From Burkholderiaceae bacterium (GTDB lineage Bacteria; Pseudomonadota; Gammaproteobacteria; Burkholderiales; Burkholderiaceae_C), in the NCBI GenBank assembly GCA_017999135.1, contig JAGOBT010000051.1:1-12137 (forward strand): DNA of 12,137 bases, in the 5' to 3' direction. Numbering within the stretch: position 1 is the stretch's first letter; the number at the start of each line of letters is the position of its first letter. A program made the position numbers and the translations under genes. This document shows positions 1 through 6,488 of this stretch, piece after piece. The notes below the pieces were generated by a model, which saw nothing but the letters and a program-made list of their open reading frames with translations, was not told the origin of the DNA and did not search any database.

Positions 1-284
1 GCGGAAAAGCGCGGCGCCGCGCCCAGTTCATGCAGCGAGATGCCCGATGTCTCGACGCTGGCCACGCAGCCGGCGCCGATCAGCAGGTCGACCAGCATGC
101 CGCTGGCCGGGTAGGCCGCGGTGGGCAGGGTGACGATGTGCAGGCCGCGCACGCCGCGGCGGATGAGGGCCATGCCCAGGCGCATCGGCACGTCGGGCTC
201 GTCGCCCTTGTGCAGGGTGATGCTGGCGCCGTCGGGCACCAGGGCGGCAAGTTGGTCGACAGTGAAGTCCATGGTGTCGGTCAT
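1..284 (-). CDS. CoA-transferase family I, subunit A (GctA-like), 3' end outside window
   Basis: The first 94 residues of a family I CoA-transferase alpha subunit are visible; the gene runs off the left edge. Seen: an N-terminal helix followed by LVPDGASITL, the usual opening of this family (the DG before the first beta strand), then an RRGVRGLHIV strand, an LLIGAGCVASV segment and VETSGISLHELGAAPRF, which resembles the glutaconate CoA-transferase A pattern of Ser-rich loop plus G-APRF. Family knowledge: such subunits pair with a subunit B, which carries the catalytic glutamate, and move CoA from a donor acyl-CoA to a free acid. Subunit B would be expected just beyond the window. ATG at 284-282 lies 14 bases after the stop of the monooxygenase-hydrolase gene, with no clear Shine-Dalgarno, so translational coupling is likely; an in-frame ATG at 272 is an alternative start. 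Inference: it activates the carboxylic acid released by the upstream fusion enzyme. Substrate cannot be told from this fragment. Confidence 0.8.
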   Translation of the reverse strand, partial: MTDTMDFTVDQLAALVPDGASITLHKGDEPDVPMRLGMALIRRGVRGLHIVTLPTAAYPASGMLVDLLIGAGCVASVETSGISLHELGAAPRFS

Positions 285-298
285 CGGCAGGTTGGTGA

Positions 299-2905
299 TC
301 AGGCTGCCACGGTGGCAGGTTGGAAGAAGCCGCGCAGCGCGGCGGCCATCTCGGCGCGCACCGGCTCGCCCGACACCACCACGTCGATCATCGTCAGCGA
401 GGTGTGGGTGTGGCCGCGCGCCGGGATGTGCTGCACCCGGTTGCCTGCGGCGGCCAGCGCCTTGGCATAGGCCACGCCATCGTCGCGCAGCGGGTCGAAC
501 TGGCCGGTGACGATGCAGGCCGGCGGCAGGCCGGCCAGGCTGGCGGCGCGCAGCGGGGCGATGCGCGGGTCGTGGCGGTCGGCCTCGTCGGCGTAGTGGT
601 CGAAGAACCACTGCATCAGCGACGCGGTCAGCACATAGCCTTCGGCGTTCTCGCGGTAGCTGGCGGTGTTGCGGTCGCCGTCGGTCACCGGGGTCAGCAG
701 CAACTGGCCGGCAATCGCCGGGCCGCCCTGGTCGCGCGCCAGCTGGCTGACCACCGCGGCCTGGTTGGCGCCGGCGCTCCAGCCCGCCACGGCGACCGGG
801 CCGGCTGCGCCGCCCAGCGAGGTGGCGTTGGTCGATACCCAGCGCAACGCGGCCATCGCGTCGTCGACCGCAGCGGGGAAGCGCGCCTCCGGCGCATGCC
901 GGTAGTCGACCGAGACGATCAGGCAGCCGCTGCGCACGCACAGGTCGCGCAGCAGCGGGTCGTCGCTGTCGTGGCTGCCCAGCACCCAGCCGCCGCCGTG
1001 GTAGTACAGCACCACCGGGTGCGGGCCGGGCGTGGCGGGGCGGTAGAGCCGGTAGTTCAACGGGCCGGCCGCGCCGGGGAAGGTGCCGTCCTTGACCTCG
1101 CCGACCGCCGGGCCAGGCGGACGCGCCGCGCTCAGCTGCGCCAGGAAGGCGCGCGCAGCGGCCGGTGGCATCGAATCGAAGGTGGGCAGGTTCATCGCCG
1201 CCAGCATGTCCAGCACCATGCCCACGTCGGGCTGCAGCTGGCGCACCAGGCCGTCGTTGCAGCGGGTGCCGGCCGGGCCGCTGCGGCGCAACCCCAGGTC
1301 GCCGCGGGCCACCACCTCGTCGCAGGCCTTGCGGTAGGCATCCACGCCGCCCACATAGGGCAGGAACACGCGCGGCTTGCCCGGCACGTTGGCGCCCATG
1401 TACCAGCTGTCGGCGCTGGGGAAGAGGGTGATCGCCGCGCAGTCCTGGCTGTGCTGCATCCATCCGGCCTCGGCCTGGGGCGTGGGCTCAATGGTGGTGA
1501 GGCCGTCGTTGCGCAGCCGCACCAGGCAGTCGCTCACCCAGTCCACATGCTGCTCGATCGACACCATCATGTTCGACAGCACCGACGGACTGCCCGGCCC
1601 GGTGATCATGAAGAAGTTGGGGAAGCCCACCGACATCAGGCCCAGGTAGGTGATCGGGCCGGCGGCCCACTTGGCCTTCAGCGTGACGCCGTCGCGGCCG
1701 GTGATGTCGACCGCCACGATGGCGCCAGTCATCGCGTCGAAGCCGGTGGCGTAGACGATGGCGTCGAAGCGCATGGCCTCGCCGCCGCAATCGATGCCGG
1801 TCTCGGTGATGCTGGTGATGGGCTGGCTGCGCAGGTCGACCAGGCGCACGTTGGGCCGGTTGTAGGTCTGGTAGTAGCCGGTGTCCAGGCAGGGGCGCTT
1901 GGTGCCGAAGTGGTGGTCCTTCGGCGCCAGCAACTCGGCCGTCTCGGGGTTGGCCACCACGGCGCGGATCTTCTCGCGCACCTTGCCGGCGACGATGGCG
2001 TTGCTGTCGGGGAACAGGATCTGGTCGGCGAACACGCCCAGGATGGGGATCAGTTCGCCGGTCTTCCATGCGGATTCGAACCGCTCGGCGTGCACGTCGG
2101 GCGGGCTGTAGCGGCCGTAGATCTGGGTGGGGGTGCTGGGCACGCCGGCACGCGACCACTTGGCCGCCAGGCGGTAGGCAGCGCGGTCGGCGTCCAGCGG
2201 CGCGCGGCGCTCGGGCGCCACCGGGCCGTTGCCGGCGGGGATGGAGTAATTGGGCGTGCGCTGGAACACCGTGAGCTGTGCCGCCTGCTCGGCGATCAGC
2301 GGGATCGACTGCACGCCCGACGAGCCGGTGCCGATCACCGCCACCCGCTGGCCGGTGAAATCCACCCCCTGGTGCGGCCAGCGGCCGGTGGAATACACCG
2401 GGCCCTGGAAGCGGCCGGCGCCGGGGATGTCGGGCGCCTTGGGCACCGACAGGCAACCGCTGGCCATGATGAGGTGCTGGGCGCTGATGCTGGCGTCGGT
2501 GCTGGTGCGGATGCGCCAGCGGTTGGCGGCGGCGTCCCAGTGCGCGGCTTCCACCTTGGTGTTGAAGTCAATGTCGCGGCGCAGGTCGTAGCGGTCGGCC
2601 ACGAACTGGGCGTAGCGCAGGATCTCGGGCTGGGTGGCGTATTTCTCCGACCAGGTCCAGGCGGTTTCCAGGTCGGGGTCGAAGCTGTAGGTGTAATCCG
2701 TGGTGGGGATGTCGCAGCGCGCGCCGGGGTAGCGGTTCCAGTACCAGGTGCCGCCCACGTCACCGGCAGTTTCCAGCACCCGCACGCTGAACCCCAGCCC
2801 GCGCAGCTTGTGCAGCAGGTACAGGCCGGCAAAGCCGGCACCCACCACCACCACGTCCACATCGGCGGCCCGTGCGCCGCCTGCTGTTGCCCTGGAATCG
2901 GTCAT
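299..2905 (-). CDS. Baeyer-Villiger monooxygenase fused to HSL-type alpha/beta-hydrolase (esterase)
   Basis: An 868-residue two-enzyme fusion. Residues about 1-540 are a type I Baeyer-Villiger monooxygenase (FAD, NADPH and O2; ketone to ester or lactone). Seen: FAD Rossmann motif GAGFAG (22-27), the second family fingerprint [15 protein letters not shown] (51-65), NADPH Rossmann motif GTGSSG (192-197), KRP with R337 where the peroxyflavin-stabilising arginine is expected, YATGFD (385-390) and W501-Y-M-G. The main fingerprint F-x-G-x3-H-x3-W-P is [12 protein letters not shown] (166-177), with Ser172 in place of His. Residues about 555-868 are a full hormone-sensitive-lipase-family esterase with cap helices: oxyanion motif HGGGW (636-640), nucleophile elbow GWSAG (Ser710; Trp replaces the usual Asp), acid DPLRD (Asp804), and His832 or His834 in GHTHTS. 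The frame is open throughout, so this is one polypeptide. Start ATG 2905 has AGGAGA five bases upstream. The same frame stays open further upstream, but that part is antisense to the heme-sensor gene and is not family-like. No signal peptide; cytoplasmic. The CoA-transferase follows in the same operon. Confidence 0.93.
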
Positions 2906-3109
2906 CGCTGTCTCCTGCTGGTGTGTCGGCGCGCCGCGCCGGGGCGTTCTTGCAGCGATGTTGCATGGGGTGCGTGCACCAGCGTGCGGCGGTTTTCCCG
3001 CATGCCGCCGGGCAAGACTGCGCCGCTCTGGTGCAGCGGCGCGCATCAGCGACTTGCGTGAGAATGCGCGCTGAAAAAGGGGCCGGCCAGGCCACGAAGG
3101 GGTGTGTCG
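2906..3109. promoter_or_regulatory. Divergent promoter region between the monooxygenase and heme-sensor genes
   Basis: These 204 bases separate divergently read genes and must hold both promoters unless transcription starts further out. Seen: an inverted repeat GGTGC-GT-GCACC at 2969-2980, and just beside it (towards the monooxygenase) a direct repeat TTGCA at 2950-2954 and 2961-2965, one helical turn (11 bases) apart. On the plus strand TGAGAAT (3059-3065) resembles an extended -10 element, but no convincing -35 sits upstream of it. The repeats are reasonable operator candidates for a regulator of the ketone-degradation operon; no regulator gene is present in the window. All of this is weak positional evidence. 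Confidence 0.35.
3096..3102 (+). promoter_or_regulatory. Ribosome binding site deciding the heme-sensor start
   Basis: GAAGGGG ends seven bases before ATG 3110. An upstream in-frame GTG at 3104 would leave only one base to this site, so ATG 3110 is preferred. Confidence 0.6.
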
Positions 3110-3982
3110 ATGAAGCTGCTGGTCAAGTTCAATCTGATCTTCGTGGGCGTGGTGACGGTGGGCATCGCCATCAGCGGCTGGATCACCCGCGACCTGCTGC
3201 AGGCCAACGCGCGCGAAGAGGTGCAGAACAACGCCCGCCTGCTGATGGAGAGCGCGTCCGCGGTGCGCGGCTACACCGCCGGCCAGATCACCAAGCTGCT
3301 GCAGGCGCAGATGCAGCAGGAATTCCTGCCCCAGGCGGTGCCCAGCTATTCGGCCACCGAGGTGCAGAACGCGCTGCACGCCAAGTACCCCGAATACGCC
3401 TACAAGGAAGCCACGCTCAACCCCACCAACCCGCGTGACCGCGCCGTGGGCTGGGAGGTCGACATCGTCAGCCACTTCCGCAATGCGGCCGACTTGAAGG
3501 AATTCGTCGGCCAGCGTGACACGCCGTCGGGCCCGTCGCTGTACGTGGCGCGGCCGCTGCGCATCACCAACCCGGCGTGCCTGCAGTGCCACAGCAGCGT
3601 GGAGGCTGCGCCCAAGACCATGGTGGCCAAGTACGGCCCGGCCAACGGCTTCGGCTGGCAGCTCAACGAGGTGGTGGGCGCGCAGATCGTGTCGGTGCCG
3701 ATGGACGTGCCGCTGGCGCGTGCCGAGCGCTCGTTCCATGTGTTCATCGGCTCGCTGGTGGGCGTGTTCGCGGTGGTCGGCCTGTTGCTGAACCTGATGA
3801 TCTGGAAGGTGGTGGTGCAGCCCGTCACCCGGCTGTCGGCGCTGGCCGACCGGGTCAGCCAGGGTGACCTGGCCGCGCCCGAATTCGCCAGCGGCAGCCG
3901 CGACGAGATCGGCGTGCTGGCCGCCAGCTTCGCCCGCATGCGCGCCAGCGTGGTGCAGGCGATGAAGATGCTGGACGACTGA
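3110..3982 (+). CDS. Membrane-bound c-type heme sensor, Tll0287-like (DUF3365) plus HAMP
   Basis: A 290-residue sensor. Seen: short N-terminus, first membrane helix at about 7-26, an extracytoplasmic domain of about 185 residues ending in the c-type heme motif CLQCH (C157, C160, H161) set in [12 protein letters not shown], a second membrane helix at about 212-232, then a HAMP domain (about 231-283: VVVQPVTRL, then [13 protein letters not shown]). Family knowledge: Tll0287/DUF3365 domains bind covalent heme and are proposed periplasmic redox or ligand sensors, usually attached to histidine kinase, GGDEF or methyl-accepting output domains. Here the protein stops right after HAMP, with only MKMLDD beyond, so no output domain is present. 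The two heme-motif cysteines are the only ones, so a cysteine distal heme ligand as described for Tll0287 is not possible; His90, His122 or a Met could serve. The Ser/Thr kinase gene begins 34 bases downstream and is the likely partner (inference). Confidence 0.88.
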
Positions 3983-4016
3983 TCCGTTCGGCACACCCGC
4001 CTGCCCAACTGCACCC

Positions 4017-5504
4017 ATGGCCCATCCGGAACGCCTCGGCAAATACCGCGTCACCGGCGTGCTCGGCGAGGGCGCGATGGGCATCGTCTACAAGGGCTTC
4101 GACCCCGACATCCGCCGCGAGGTGGCCATCAAGACGATGCGCGTGGCGGCCGACGCCGACGCCGGGCAGGGCGTGTCGTATGCCGACCGCTTCCGCAACG
4201 AGGCGCAGGCCGCCGGCCGGCTGCAGCACCCGGGCATCGTGGCGGTGTACGACTTCGGCCGCGACGCCGGTGTCGACTACATCGCGATGGAATACGTGCG
4301 CGGCAACACGCTGAGCCGTTACATCACCCAGGCCATCAGCGAGCAGCTGGACATCAACGACGACGACGTGGCCAGCATCATCGGCCAGCTGCTCGAGGCG
4401 CTGGACCATGCGCATGCGCAGGGCGTCTGGCACCGCGACATCAAGCCGTCGAACCTGATCATCACGCCCACTGGCAAGGTGAAGGTGTCGGACTTCGGCA
4501 TCGCCCGCATCGAGAACGCCGACCTCACCCAGGCCGCCAGCCTGATCGGCACGCCGGCCTACATGGCGCCCGAGCGCTTCCAGGGCCTGCCCATGGACCG
4601 GCGTGTCGACCTGTACGCCACCGGCGTGGTGCTCTACCAGATGCTGACCGGCCGGGTGCCGTTCAGCGGCCCGCCCGAAGCCATCATGTACAAGGCGGTG
4701 CACGAGCCGCTGGTGCTGCCGTCACGCCTGCCTGGCCTGGCCCGACTGGCCCCGTATGACGACCTGCTGACCCGCGCCCTGGCCAAGCGCGCCGAAGACC
4801 GTTTCGCCAACGCGGTGCAGTTCATGGACGCGCTGGAAGCCGCGATGGGCCGGCTGCACCCCGACAGCATCAGCAACGCCACCATCACCGCGCTGATGCC
4901 GCAGGCCCTGGTGGCCCCGGGCGACCTGGCCACCAATTCCAGCCTGCCCACCGGCTTCAGCGCCGACGACCTGGCCCAGGCCGCGGCCCGGCTGTCGCGC
5001 CACGTGGGGCCGATGGCGCAGGTGATGGTCAAGCGCGTGGCGCGCGGCTGCTCCGATCTGCCCACGCTGTATGCCCGCCTGGCCGAGCAGGTGACCGACC
5101 CCAACGCCCGCCTGGCCTTCGAGCAGGAGGCGGCCACGCTGGCCACCGGCACCGGCCGCCCGGGGGCCACCGGCACGGGCAGCCGGGCGCCATCGCCCAC
5201 CAACACCGGTCTGCGGGGGGCGCCACCCACGAACACGGGCACGGCGTCTGCGCGCCATCCCACCCAGCCTGCACCCACCAACACCGGCGGCAGCGCGGGC
5301 CTGGCACCGCCCAGCGCTGCCGTGGTGGACGCGGCGCAGCGCCTGCTGGCGCGCCAGATCGGGCCGATCGCCACCCTGGTGGTCAAGAAGGCCCTGGCCG
5401 CCGCGCCGCAGCGCGATGCCTTCATCCAGCGCCTGGCCCTGGCGGTGGACGACCCCGCCGCCCGCGCCCGCCTGGTCGACGAACTGCGGCGCCTGCCGCC
5501 CTGA
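4017..5504 (+). CDS. Soluble Hanks-type Ser/Thr protein kinase with duplicated C-terminal module
   Basis: A 495-residue protein kinase of the PknB type. Seen: kinase domain about 8-280 with glycine loop GEGAMG (17-22), VAIK lysine 39, catalytic loop HRDIKPSN (Asp141, Lys143, Asn146), DFG (159-161), activation segment with Thr179, and APE (184-186); all key residues are intact and it is an RD kinase. There is no membrane helix, unlike classical PknB with PASTA repeats. Residues 317-371 and 434-490 are two copies of one helical module ([11 protein letters not shown] versus [11 protein letters not shown]; ungapped, about 16 of 44 identical at residues 322-365), joined by a Thr/Asn/Gly/Pro-rich linker with PTNTG at 394, 404 and 420. 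I cannot name the module with certainty. ATG 4017 lacks a clear Shine-Dalgarno, but the kinase core begins at residue 8, so a later start is excluded. It follows the heme sensor by 34 bases and precedes lpxC by 48. Likely role: phosphorylation output for the sensor (inference); targets unknown. Confidence 0.93.
5196..5287 (+). repeat. Three PTNTG-coding repeats in the kinase linker
   Basis: The 14-base unit CCCACCAACACCGG occurs exactly at 5196-5209 and 5274-5287, and in a variant form at 5226-5239. All three are in the same frame and encode PTNTG. They lie in the disordered-looking linker between the two C-terminal modules of the kinase. The variant copy differs at the third and wobble-type positions, which suggests that the peptide rather than the DNA is being kept. 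Confidence 0.7.
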
Positions 5505-5552
5505 CGGCTGCCCCGGCTGGCTGCCGCGCAGTTGCAGGACAATGCAGGGCCC

Positions 5553-6488
5553 ATGCTGCAGCAACGCACCCTTCGATCCATCACCCGCGCCGTCGGCGTG
5601 GGCATGCACAGCGGCCAGAAGGTGGAGCTCACCCTGCGCCCCGCCGCGCCCGACACCGGCATCGTCTTTCGCCGCGTCGACCTGGCCGTGCCGGTGGAGA
5701 TTCCGGTGCGCTGCGACGCGGTCAGCGACACCCGCATGGCCAGCACCATCTCGGCCGGCGGTGACCCCGGCGCGCCCAAGGTGCAGACCATCGAGCACTT
5801 CATGAGCGCCTGCTGCGGTCTGGGGCTGGACAACCTGCAGGTCGACATCACGGCCGATGAGGTGCCCATCCTCGACGGATCGGCCGCCAGCTTCGTGTTC
5901 CTGCTGCAGAGCGCGGGCATCGTGCTGCAGGACGCGCCCAAGCGCTTCCTGCGGGTGAAGGAGGTGGTGGAGGTGCGCCAGGGCGAAGGCAAGCGCCTGA
6001 TGTGGGCCCGGCTGGAGCCGTACCACGGCTTCAAGCTCAGCTTCGAGATTCATTTCGGCCACCCGGCGGTCGACGCCACCGGCCAGCGCGTCACCTTCGA
6101 CATGGGCTCGGGCCGCTACAAGCGCGACATCGCCCGCGCCCGCACCTTCGGCTTCACCAAGGACGTGGAGGCCATGCGCTCGCGCGGGCTCACCCTGGGC
6201 GGCAGCATGGACAACGCCATCGTGGTCGACGACAGCCGGGTGCTGAATGCCGACGGCCTGCGCTACGACGATGAATTCGCCAAGCACAAGATCCTGGACG
6301 CCATCGGCGACCTGTACAACGCCGGCCACCCGATGCTGGCGCACTACACCGCCTACAAGAGCGGCCATGCGCTGAACAACCTGCTGCTGCGCGAACTGCT
6401 GTCGCGGCCATCGGCCTGGGACCTCGTCACCTTCGACAACGCGGCCGACGCGCCTGCCGGCTTTGCCGAGCTGGCGCCGGCCTGGTGA
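5553..6488 (+). CDS. lpxC: UDP-3-O-acyl-N-acetylglucosamine deacetylase
   Basis: LpxC, 311 residues, the zinc-dependent deacetylase of the first committed step of lipid A synthesis, cytoplasmic. Seen: N-terminal [10 protein letters not shown] matching the usual MIKQRTLK opening, TIEHFMSA with Glu81 (catalytic base) and His82 (zinc), [11 protein letters not shown] (108-118), RARTFGF (195-201), [13 protein letters not shown] (215-227), the zinc ligands His245 and Asp249 in [10 protein letters not shown], and KSGHALNN with His272 (catalytic). Full length relative to E. coli LpxC (305). Start: ATG 5553 fits the family N-terminus; a TTG at 5532 would add seven unrelated residues. The Shine-Dalgarno is poor (AGGG four bases upstream). 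In many beta- and gammaproteobacteria lpxC follows ftsZ at the end of the division/cell-wall cluster; here the upstream neighbour is a Ser/Thr kinase, so it has been separated from that cluster. Confidence 0.97.

Follow-up and report, generated by a model that had tools for sequence, protein, structure and literature searches.

A natural fusion of a Baeyer-Villiger-type monooxygenase and an esterase, with serine at the fingerprint position, in a Burkholderiaceae bacterium

Does one open frame in the DNA of a Burkholderiaceae bacterium really join two enzymes that could act in turn on a ketone, and do the genes beside it complete a pathway? The window analysed here, meaning the whole stretch of 12,137 bases, is the entire contig C273 of a genome (G000) of 3.80 Mb in 633 contigs, which is 71% complete. 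A gene on its minus strand encodes a Baeyer-Villiger-type monooxygenase (BVMO) followed by an esterase. We found that this two-enzyme fusion is a real single polypeptide. We also observed that the histidine of the type I BVMO fingerprint is replaced in it, and that such fusions, rare in this order, are spread over many bacterial lineages. The protein would probably cleave a ketone to an alcohol and an acid.

The fusion protein and its two domains

The frame begins with ATG at 2905, codes from 2905 to 302 on the minus strand and stops at 299-301, giving 868 residues without an internal stop. A search of PDB sequences with phmmer matched residues 13-538 to steroid monooxygenase 4ap3 (E 6.4e-178) and also to phenylacetone monooxygenase (PAMO) 1w4x, and residues 553-851 to the Est8 esterase 4ypv (E 4.1e-79). 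In Pfam, the FAD/NAD-binding and FMO-like domains were matched inside the stretch 17-219, and residues 632-835 matched Abhydrolase_3 (E 7.7e-70). The search for homologues of the fusion protein scored only the 8,000 candidates with the most shared words, and 120 were listed; abhydrolase and flavoprotein Pfam domains were both present in 120/120 of them (767-915 aa, 69-93% identity). Further, a genome of the same genus (G011) holds a 94% identical copy spanning residues 1-868. Because all 120 listed homologues carry both domains and G011 holds this copy, the junction is no assembly artefact. A sequencing error or false join of two genes, which the original prediction had named as a possible source of the frame, is thereby ruled out. 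That prediction, made from the sequence alone, held that one frame joins two complete enzymes, and this was borne out: both domain matches were found and the main catalytic residues of both enzymes are kept. The features of the gene are as follows.

299..2905, minus strand: BVMO-esterase fusion gene, 868 codons and stop (from the open reading frame (ORF), homologues and an AlphaFold2 model)
2911..2916, minus strand: AGGAGA, ribosome-binding-site-like, 5 bases upstream of the fusion ATG (read from the sequence)
1292..2869, minus strand: Baeyer-Villiger-type monooxygenase domain, residues 13-538 (phmmer to 4ap3/1w4x; Foldseek to PAMO 2ylw)
2711..2713, minus strand: Asp65 (PAMO Asp66), last residue of the GGxWxxxxYPGxxxD motif (alignment to PAMO)
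2375..2410, minus strand: BVMO fingerprint region, residues 166-177, with Ser172 (2390-2392) in place of the type I BVMO histidine (alignments)
1895..1897, minus strand: Arg337 (PAMO Arg337), active-site arginine (120/120 listed homologues; alignment to 1w4x)
1238..1291, minus strand: linker, residues 539-556, with predicted beta strands at 539-543 and 546-549 (DSSP on the AlphaFold2 model)
335..1237, minus strand: esterase domain of the hormone-sensitive-lipase family, Abhydrolase_3, residues 557-857 (Pfam, NCBIfam and PDB sequence matches)
989..1000, minus strand: HGGG oxyanion-hole motif, residues 636-639 (His636 in 120/120 listed homologues)
776..778, minus strand: Ser710, nucleophile in GWSAG (120/120 listed homologues)
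494..496, minus strand: Asp804 of the triad (120/120 listed homologues)
404..406, minus strand: His834 of the triad (120/120 listed homologues)

The monooxygenase domain is approximately 52% identical to 4ap3 and 1w4x over 528-530 alignment columns. Its bit scores were 597 and 590 against the steroid and phenylacetone enzymes, while the best cyclohexanone monooxygenase (CHMO) reached 468. Both Rossmann motifs of the form GxGxx[G/A] are present (GAGFAG at 22-27 and GTGSSG at 192-197), and so is the [A/G]GxWxxxx[F/Y]P[G/M]xxxD motif of type I BVMOs, at residues 51-65. The catalytic arginine and aspartate of PAMO (Arg337 and Asp66) are matched by Arg337 and Asp65, with the Arg337Lys mutant chain 2ylw serving as the anchor of the PAMO numbering. 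The fold agrees as well, since Foldseek of the model against the PDB returned 2ylw with a target TM of 0.97 (root-mean-square deviation 1.4 A, 530 columns). Across the 120 listed homologues, Arg337, Trp501 and Trp176 were each found in 120 and Asp65 in 119, with one gap.

The esterase domain contains the HGGG and GxSxG motifs and the Asp and His of the triad that define the hormone-sensitive-lipase family, and it matched PF07859 with 235.3 bits against a cut-off of 25. The best NCBIfam match was LipP1 (NF058653); its 339.6 bits lie below the curated NCBI cut-off of 350, so the domain was not assigned to this equivalog. We identified His834, and not His832, as the catalytic histidine, because only the former is invariant (120/120 versus 114/120 listed homologues). 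The AlphaFold2 model, obtained from a 67-sequence alignment, had a mean pLDDT of 91.7 and a pTM of 0.89, with pLDDT below 50 only at residues 1-10 and 865-868; from this pTM the predicted relative placement of the two domains is confident. No structure with both domains was present among the 50 PDB Foldseek matches listed, all of which align over 527-545 columns.

The window's own genome also encodes separate relatives of each half on other contigs: a BVMO relative of 46% identity at G000:C576:3032-4735 (L002) and an esterase relative of 43% identity at G000:C200:256-1173 (L004). Some members of the fusion family are already named in databases, for instance as 'flavin-containing monooxygenase' or 'alpha/beta hydrolase fold domain-containing protein'.

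The fingerprint histidine and the spread of fusions

The type I BVMO fingerprint FxGxxxHxxxW[P/D] was not found with its histidine, as Ser172 occupies that position. The original prediction did not mention this replacement. In the 120 listed near homologues the histidine column contained Phe 83 times, Ser 14, Tyr 7, His 5, Thr 4, Val 3, Leu 2, Asn 1 and Ile 1. A second set of 120 listed proteins with the monooxygenase first (BVMO-Est), found by a profile built from four distant fusions, had His in 26/120, Arg in 27 and Ala in 19, the remainder being spread over ten residues. Among 120 listed fusions of the reverse order (Est-BVMO), none had His (Gln 112, Val 6, Ile 2). The histidine was present in 107 of 119 standalone relatives, where three of the 12 rows lacking it are unfair (L117 and L025 are cut fusions, L007 is a distant flavoprotein), and in 10 of 14 monooxygenases with an adjacent esterase gene.

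We clustered 529 domains (533 rows minus L001, L007, L020 and L117) at 72% identity to 146, with L025 left unclassified and an opposite-strand neighbour scored as standalone. His was then present in 3/53 BVMO-Est and 0/3 Est-BVMO representatives (3/56 fusions), 7/11 with an adjacent gene and 71/78 standalone; the members of each group are related and the counts are not independent. Statistical proof that histidine loss followed fusion was not reached, as the tree gave just 3 independent pairs and no power; a Fisher test on the clustered counts takes no account of relatedness and carries no weight here. Several observations speak against such a link. The histidine is retained in three fusions, L028, L029 and L030, whose records bear the titles Mesobacillus, Neobacillus and Paenibacillus, and in the 26 proteins of the second set, and the unfused non-His relatives L039, L026 and L168 sit beside the query clade in the tree. 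Given this last position, relaxation of the fingerprint histidine may be partly older than the fusion. The esterases of L028, L029 and L030 form one branch, and these His-retaining fusions offer a natural control for the question of histidine loss.

According to the accessible text of PMC3762062, the fingerprint histidine is involved in a conformational change and connects the FAD and NADPH sites. The same text describes BVMOAf1, which naturally carries glutamine (H173Q) and whose BVMO domain is active; for the assays its natural C-terminal partner had been removed and a phosphite dehydrogenase attached. Since the partner was absent from that assay, BVMOAf1 shows that a non-His BVMO can work without it, which also counts against the link, and is no evidence that a tethered partner replaces the histidine; compensation by the esterase domain is speculation. 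Some rhodococcal BVMOs are without the fully conserved motif, as the available part of PMC3762062 states with reference to Riebel 2012, and motif relaxation as such is already in print.

How widespread is the fusion? Full-length BVMO-Est matches were found in 2/200 genomes of the family sample (G000 and G011), in 1/399 of the order sample (the window's own) and in 11/398 of the phylum sample (its own, nine of genus code g373, and G618). Est-BVMO fusions were present in two further genomes of the phylum sample, G877 and G888. Another genome of the same genus, G143, gave no fusion match at the 1e-100 cut-off. A scan of named genomes detected fused relatives in records titled Pseudonocardia, Mycobacterium, Bradyrhizobium, Mesobacillus, Neobacillus, Paenibacillus, Vineibacter and others. 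The fusion thus occurs in many lineages, and the rarity suggested by the original prediction's remark on usually separate genes is not supported, although in this order such fusions are rare. Two of these records need a remark. In L024 (9932-12064, Bradyrhizobium sp. AT1) the 94% match to a relative ends at residue 712 of the frame while the frame stays open, which we read as a frameshift within the esterase portion or as its rearrangement. In L025, a metagenome-assembled genome (MAG) titled Bifidobacterium breve, a BVMO-esterase fusion is cut by the contig end; in the tree it lies next to that of L022, a MAG of Actinomycetota, and L025 is possibly mis-assigned.

The 173 loci with a monooxygenase match comprised 35 BVMO-Est (window included), 4 Est-BVMO, 14 same-strand pairs, 1 opposite-strand pair and 119 monooxygenases alone; for many of the last the flank spans no more than some 1.5 kb, and neighbours may therefore be missed. 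The domain order was confirmed in 120/120 listed Est-BVMO proteins and in 120/120 listed proteins of the second BVMO-Est set. Hardly any linker separates the domains of the four Est-BVMO proteins, and further examples of this type are found under the database names Henriciella, Parvibaculales and other Alphaproteobacteria. That both orders occur speaks for two or more separate joins. Monooxygenase trees, built with the fingerprint columns removed, showed four changes between fused and unfused states, and the esterase tree also showed four. The four fused groups were the query clade, another large clade of BVMO-Est type, the Mesobacillus-type fusions and Est-BVMO. The approximately unbiased test rejected neither the union of the two large BVMO-Est clades (p = 0.306) nor a single clade of all fusions (p = 0.154), and therefore the trees do not settle the number of joins. 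In the esterase tree the Est-BVMO esterases cluster with the esterases L068, L069, L084 and L109, whose genes adjoin a monooxygenase gene in that same arrangement (SH-aLRT 98), which suggests that Est-BVMO arose by the joining of adjacent genes.

The proposed reaction and the downstream genes

We consider it reasonably probable that the protein is a bifunctional enzyme that cleaves a ketone, probably a methyl ketone, to an alcohol and an acid. Judging from its family and residues, the N-terminal flavin monooxygenase would use NADPH and O2 to insert oxygen beside the ketone carbonyl, yielding an acetate-type ester. The C-terminal esterase would hydrolyse this ester via Ser710, Asp804 and His834 to the alcohol and a short acid. 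The proposed substrate is a methyl ketone whose other side is bulky or aromatic. In favour of this reading are the single polypeptide with both folds and the main catalytic residues, the confidently predicted packing of the domains, the presence of the fusion in many lineages and in either order, and the pairs of adjacent genes. Steroid and phenylacetone monooxygenases convert methyl ketones to acetate esters, and hormone-sensitive-lipase esterases prefer short acyl groups. The most economical overall route would thus lead from methyl ketone through acetate ester to alcohol and acetate in one protein.

Some points weigh against this proposal. Mutation of the histidine, absent here, lowers the efficiency of CHMO and inactivates HAPMO, as reported in the accessible text of PMC3762062. 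The genes around the fusion differ from lineage to lineage; besides weak or ambiguous clusters, only Bradyrhizobium loci share neighbours, among themselves. A pTM of 0.89 is no proof of channelling. In scans of the neighbourhoods in other lineages, genes of CoA catabolism (enoyl-CoA hydratase, thiolase, acyl-CoA dehydrogenases, AMP-ligase) were detected near L011, L012, L063 and L042, and none was seen in the second set of flanking ORFs scanned; these scans covered 20 chosen ORFs of 77, from 11 of 15 loci, with crude gene calls.

The serine at position 172 could also mean that the monooxygenase domain no longer performs Baeyer-Villiger chemistry and works as a heteroatom oxygenase or a slow NADPH oxidase, while the esterase acts on substrates of its own. 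The impaired CHMO and inactive HAPMO mutants fit this, and so does the presence of His in only 5/120 listed near homologues. We nevertheless judge it unlikely: Arg337, Asp65 and Trp501 are kept in the listed homologues (with the one gap at Asp65), the partner of the monooxygenase is repeatedly an ester hydrolase, and the naturally H173Q domain of BVMOAf1 is active (PMC3762062, available part). Because the three residues are kept and that domain works, the Ser172 enzyme has most likely retained Baeyer-Villiger chemistry. About equally improbable, in our estimation, is a cyclic-ketone substrate, in which a lactone would be made and then opened to a hydroxy-acid, as in a fused monoterpene or cycloalkanone route. 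Adjacent genes for a type I BVMO and a monoterpene epsilon-lactone hydrolase are known, according to the available text of PMC9836352. The closest solved enzymes here are those for steroid and phenylacetone and not the cyclohexanone monooxygenases, and this difference in bit scores favours a methyl ketone over the lactone route.

The original prediction further placed a CoA-transferase gene 14 bases downstream, which would activate the freed acid so that one operon leads from ketone to acyl-CoA. The distance was correct: the next gene starts with ATG at 284, 14 bases past the fusion stop, and 94 of its residues are present in the window.

3..284, minus strand: first part of a CoA_trans-family alpha subunit, truncated where the contig ends (G011 holds the full relative, P0122)

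This 94-residue fragment had no Pfam or NCBIfam match at E<=0.001, and its family is known from G011, where the order is the fusion, 16 bases, alpha (283 aa), beta overlapping alpha at ATGA, and then a TctC-type gene on the opposite strand. Both G011 subunits belong to the CoA_trans family (PF01144, 40.9 and 43.1 bits against a cut-off of 23). Searched alone, alpha and beta scored 73.3 and 56.7 bits with the 5mzw-type chains, which we take to be AibAB, a decarboxylase; 46.4 and 54.0 with 1poi, a glutaconate CoA-transferase (GCT); and 54.7 and 30.4 with 6con/6co6, presumably IpdAB. A profile of 11 beta subunits ranked GCT at the top (99.2 bits), ahead of the 5mzw-type chains (87-88) and 6co6 (67.0). 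The catalytic glutamate of type I CoA-transferases (GCT Glu54 of beta) was not found: residues 46-73 of P0123, the G011 beta subunit, contain no Glu and also no Cys. Glu54 was placed near Ser62 by extending the alignment three residues past V51, in a weak stretch of 7.0 bits. Columns 57-72 lack Glu in 11/11 sequences (the G011 beta and 10 relatives), and three relatives have Glu in columns 46-56. IpdAB, which is also without the catalytic Glu, has no CoA-transferase activity according to the accessible text of PMC5380842.

The pair is a genus-level neighbour of the fusion. At E<=1 it was not detected at the other 37 of the 39 fused loci, save for a 38-residue match (E 0.98) in L019; 21 of the 39 exceed 8 kb, and 16 of the other 37 are 8 kb or shorter. 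A relative of the beta subunit was present in 25/150 genomes of the order (E<=1e-20), and 24 loci around such relatives (20 short, four of 14.6-19 kb) contained no monooxygenase or esterase-domain match at 1e-8. A conserved operon from ketone to acyl-CoA is therefore rejected, as the pair is not conserved and its catalytic Glu was not found. The looser form of this pathway, in which the neighbouring pair would still activate the freed acid, has in its favour the gene order in G011 and the window and a true transferase topping the profile search. Set against the missing Glu, the 5mzw chains being the nearest solved sequences to the single subunits, and the 37 loci without the pair, we regard it as unsupported and very unlikely.

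Same-order genomes hold further CoA_trans pairs at L177-L192, whose identity to the G011 pair is 45-55% for alpha and 53-67% for beta; the alpha subunit was not found in L190. These pairs apparently form an uncharacterised family whose aligned betas are without the transferase Glu.

Returning to the ketone-cleaving enzyme that we favour, a broader picture can be drawn. The fusions might be a large class of 'ketone cleavases' complete in themselves, which arose by several joins in either order. Tethering would have relaxed the histidine, which presumably serves domain motion in free BVMOs, the ester would be passed on unreleased, and motif-based catalogues would have screened out most of the class. 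We hold this as a tentative and rather doubtful extension, made less likely by the BVMOAf1 assay without the partner domain.

On the other side of the fusion, and divergent from it, the window encodes at 3110-6485 a Tll0287-like and HAMP protein, a Ser/Thr protein kinase (4017-5501) and LpxC (5532-6485), all identified by Pfam. lpxC and ftsZ adjoin in many Proteobacteria. In G011:C8 31659-55984 (L118 18061-18984, L117 13660-14595) the fusion operon and other genes occupy approximately 22 kb between them, with FtsZ identified by Pfam and lpxC by its start matching the window copy. These genes of G011 may have been inserted into the dcw region.

Comparison with known systems

Among the matches listed by searches of the open-access literature for a natural BVMO-esterase fusion, we found none; subscription papers lay outside this search, and Riebel 2012 may describe fusions. 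The fused architecture is unusual and the loss of a hallmark residue unexplained, while both folds and the reaction order are known. BVMOs find heavy use as biocatalysts, and what they act on in nature is for the most part not known, as stated in the available part of PMC4498894. A tethered ester hydrolase points to a natural BVMO reaction, from ketone to alcohol and acid, and makes its role testable. The histidine motif was used to select or find BVMOs in PMC4498894, PMC6058054 and PMC7570161, and the motif in PMC3762062 allowed His or Gln, as far as the accessible texts describe. Since most sampled fusions are without the fingerprint histidine, mining that demands it would skip them. The non-His fusions are also a natural experiment on the role of this residue.

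For the downstream pair, 5mzw, 1poi and 6co6/6con were the only clear solved matches; they belong to the CoA-transferase family and are distant (top beta score 56.7 bits alone, 99.2 by profile). IpdAB shares with the G011 beta the lack of the catalytic Glu (PMC5380842, accessible text).

For the fusion itself, steroid monooxygenase 4ap3 and PAMO 1w4x/2ylw have the same fold (target TM 0.94-0.97), the Rossmann motifs and the active-site Arg and Asp, but no esterase domain, and they carry the fingerprint histidine where the fusion has Ser172. Est8 4ypv and LipP1 resemble the esterase domain over its whole length, including HGGG, GxSxG, Asp and His, whereas the fusion esterase is joined to a monooxygenase and stays below the LipP1 cut-off. 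In the operon of M. tuberculosis mymA (Rv3083) and lipR (Rv3084) a BVMO gene presumably lies beside a lipase-family gene, the two being separate. BVMOAf1 of Aspergillus fumigatus likewise has a natural C-terminal partner, of about 360 residues, and a replaced fingerprint histidine, and is active; it is fungal, and its deleted partner is a putative polynucleotide synthase domain and not an esterase (PMC3762062, available text). The neighbouring BVMO and lactone-hydrolase genes sphantq_4479/4480 of Sphingobium sp. AntQ-1 are upregulated on anthraquinone, as the accessible part of PMC9836352 reports. There the same two activities are proposed in sequence with a type I BVMO, an example of this reaction logic in separate genes, but the Sphingobium enzymes are two separate proteins and the BVMO is reported to have the canonical fingerprint, whereas in the window both activities would reside in one polypeptide.

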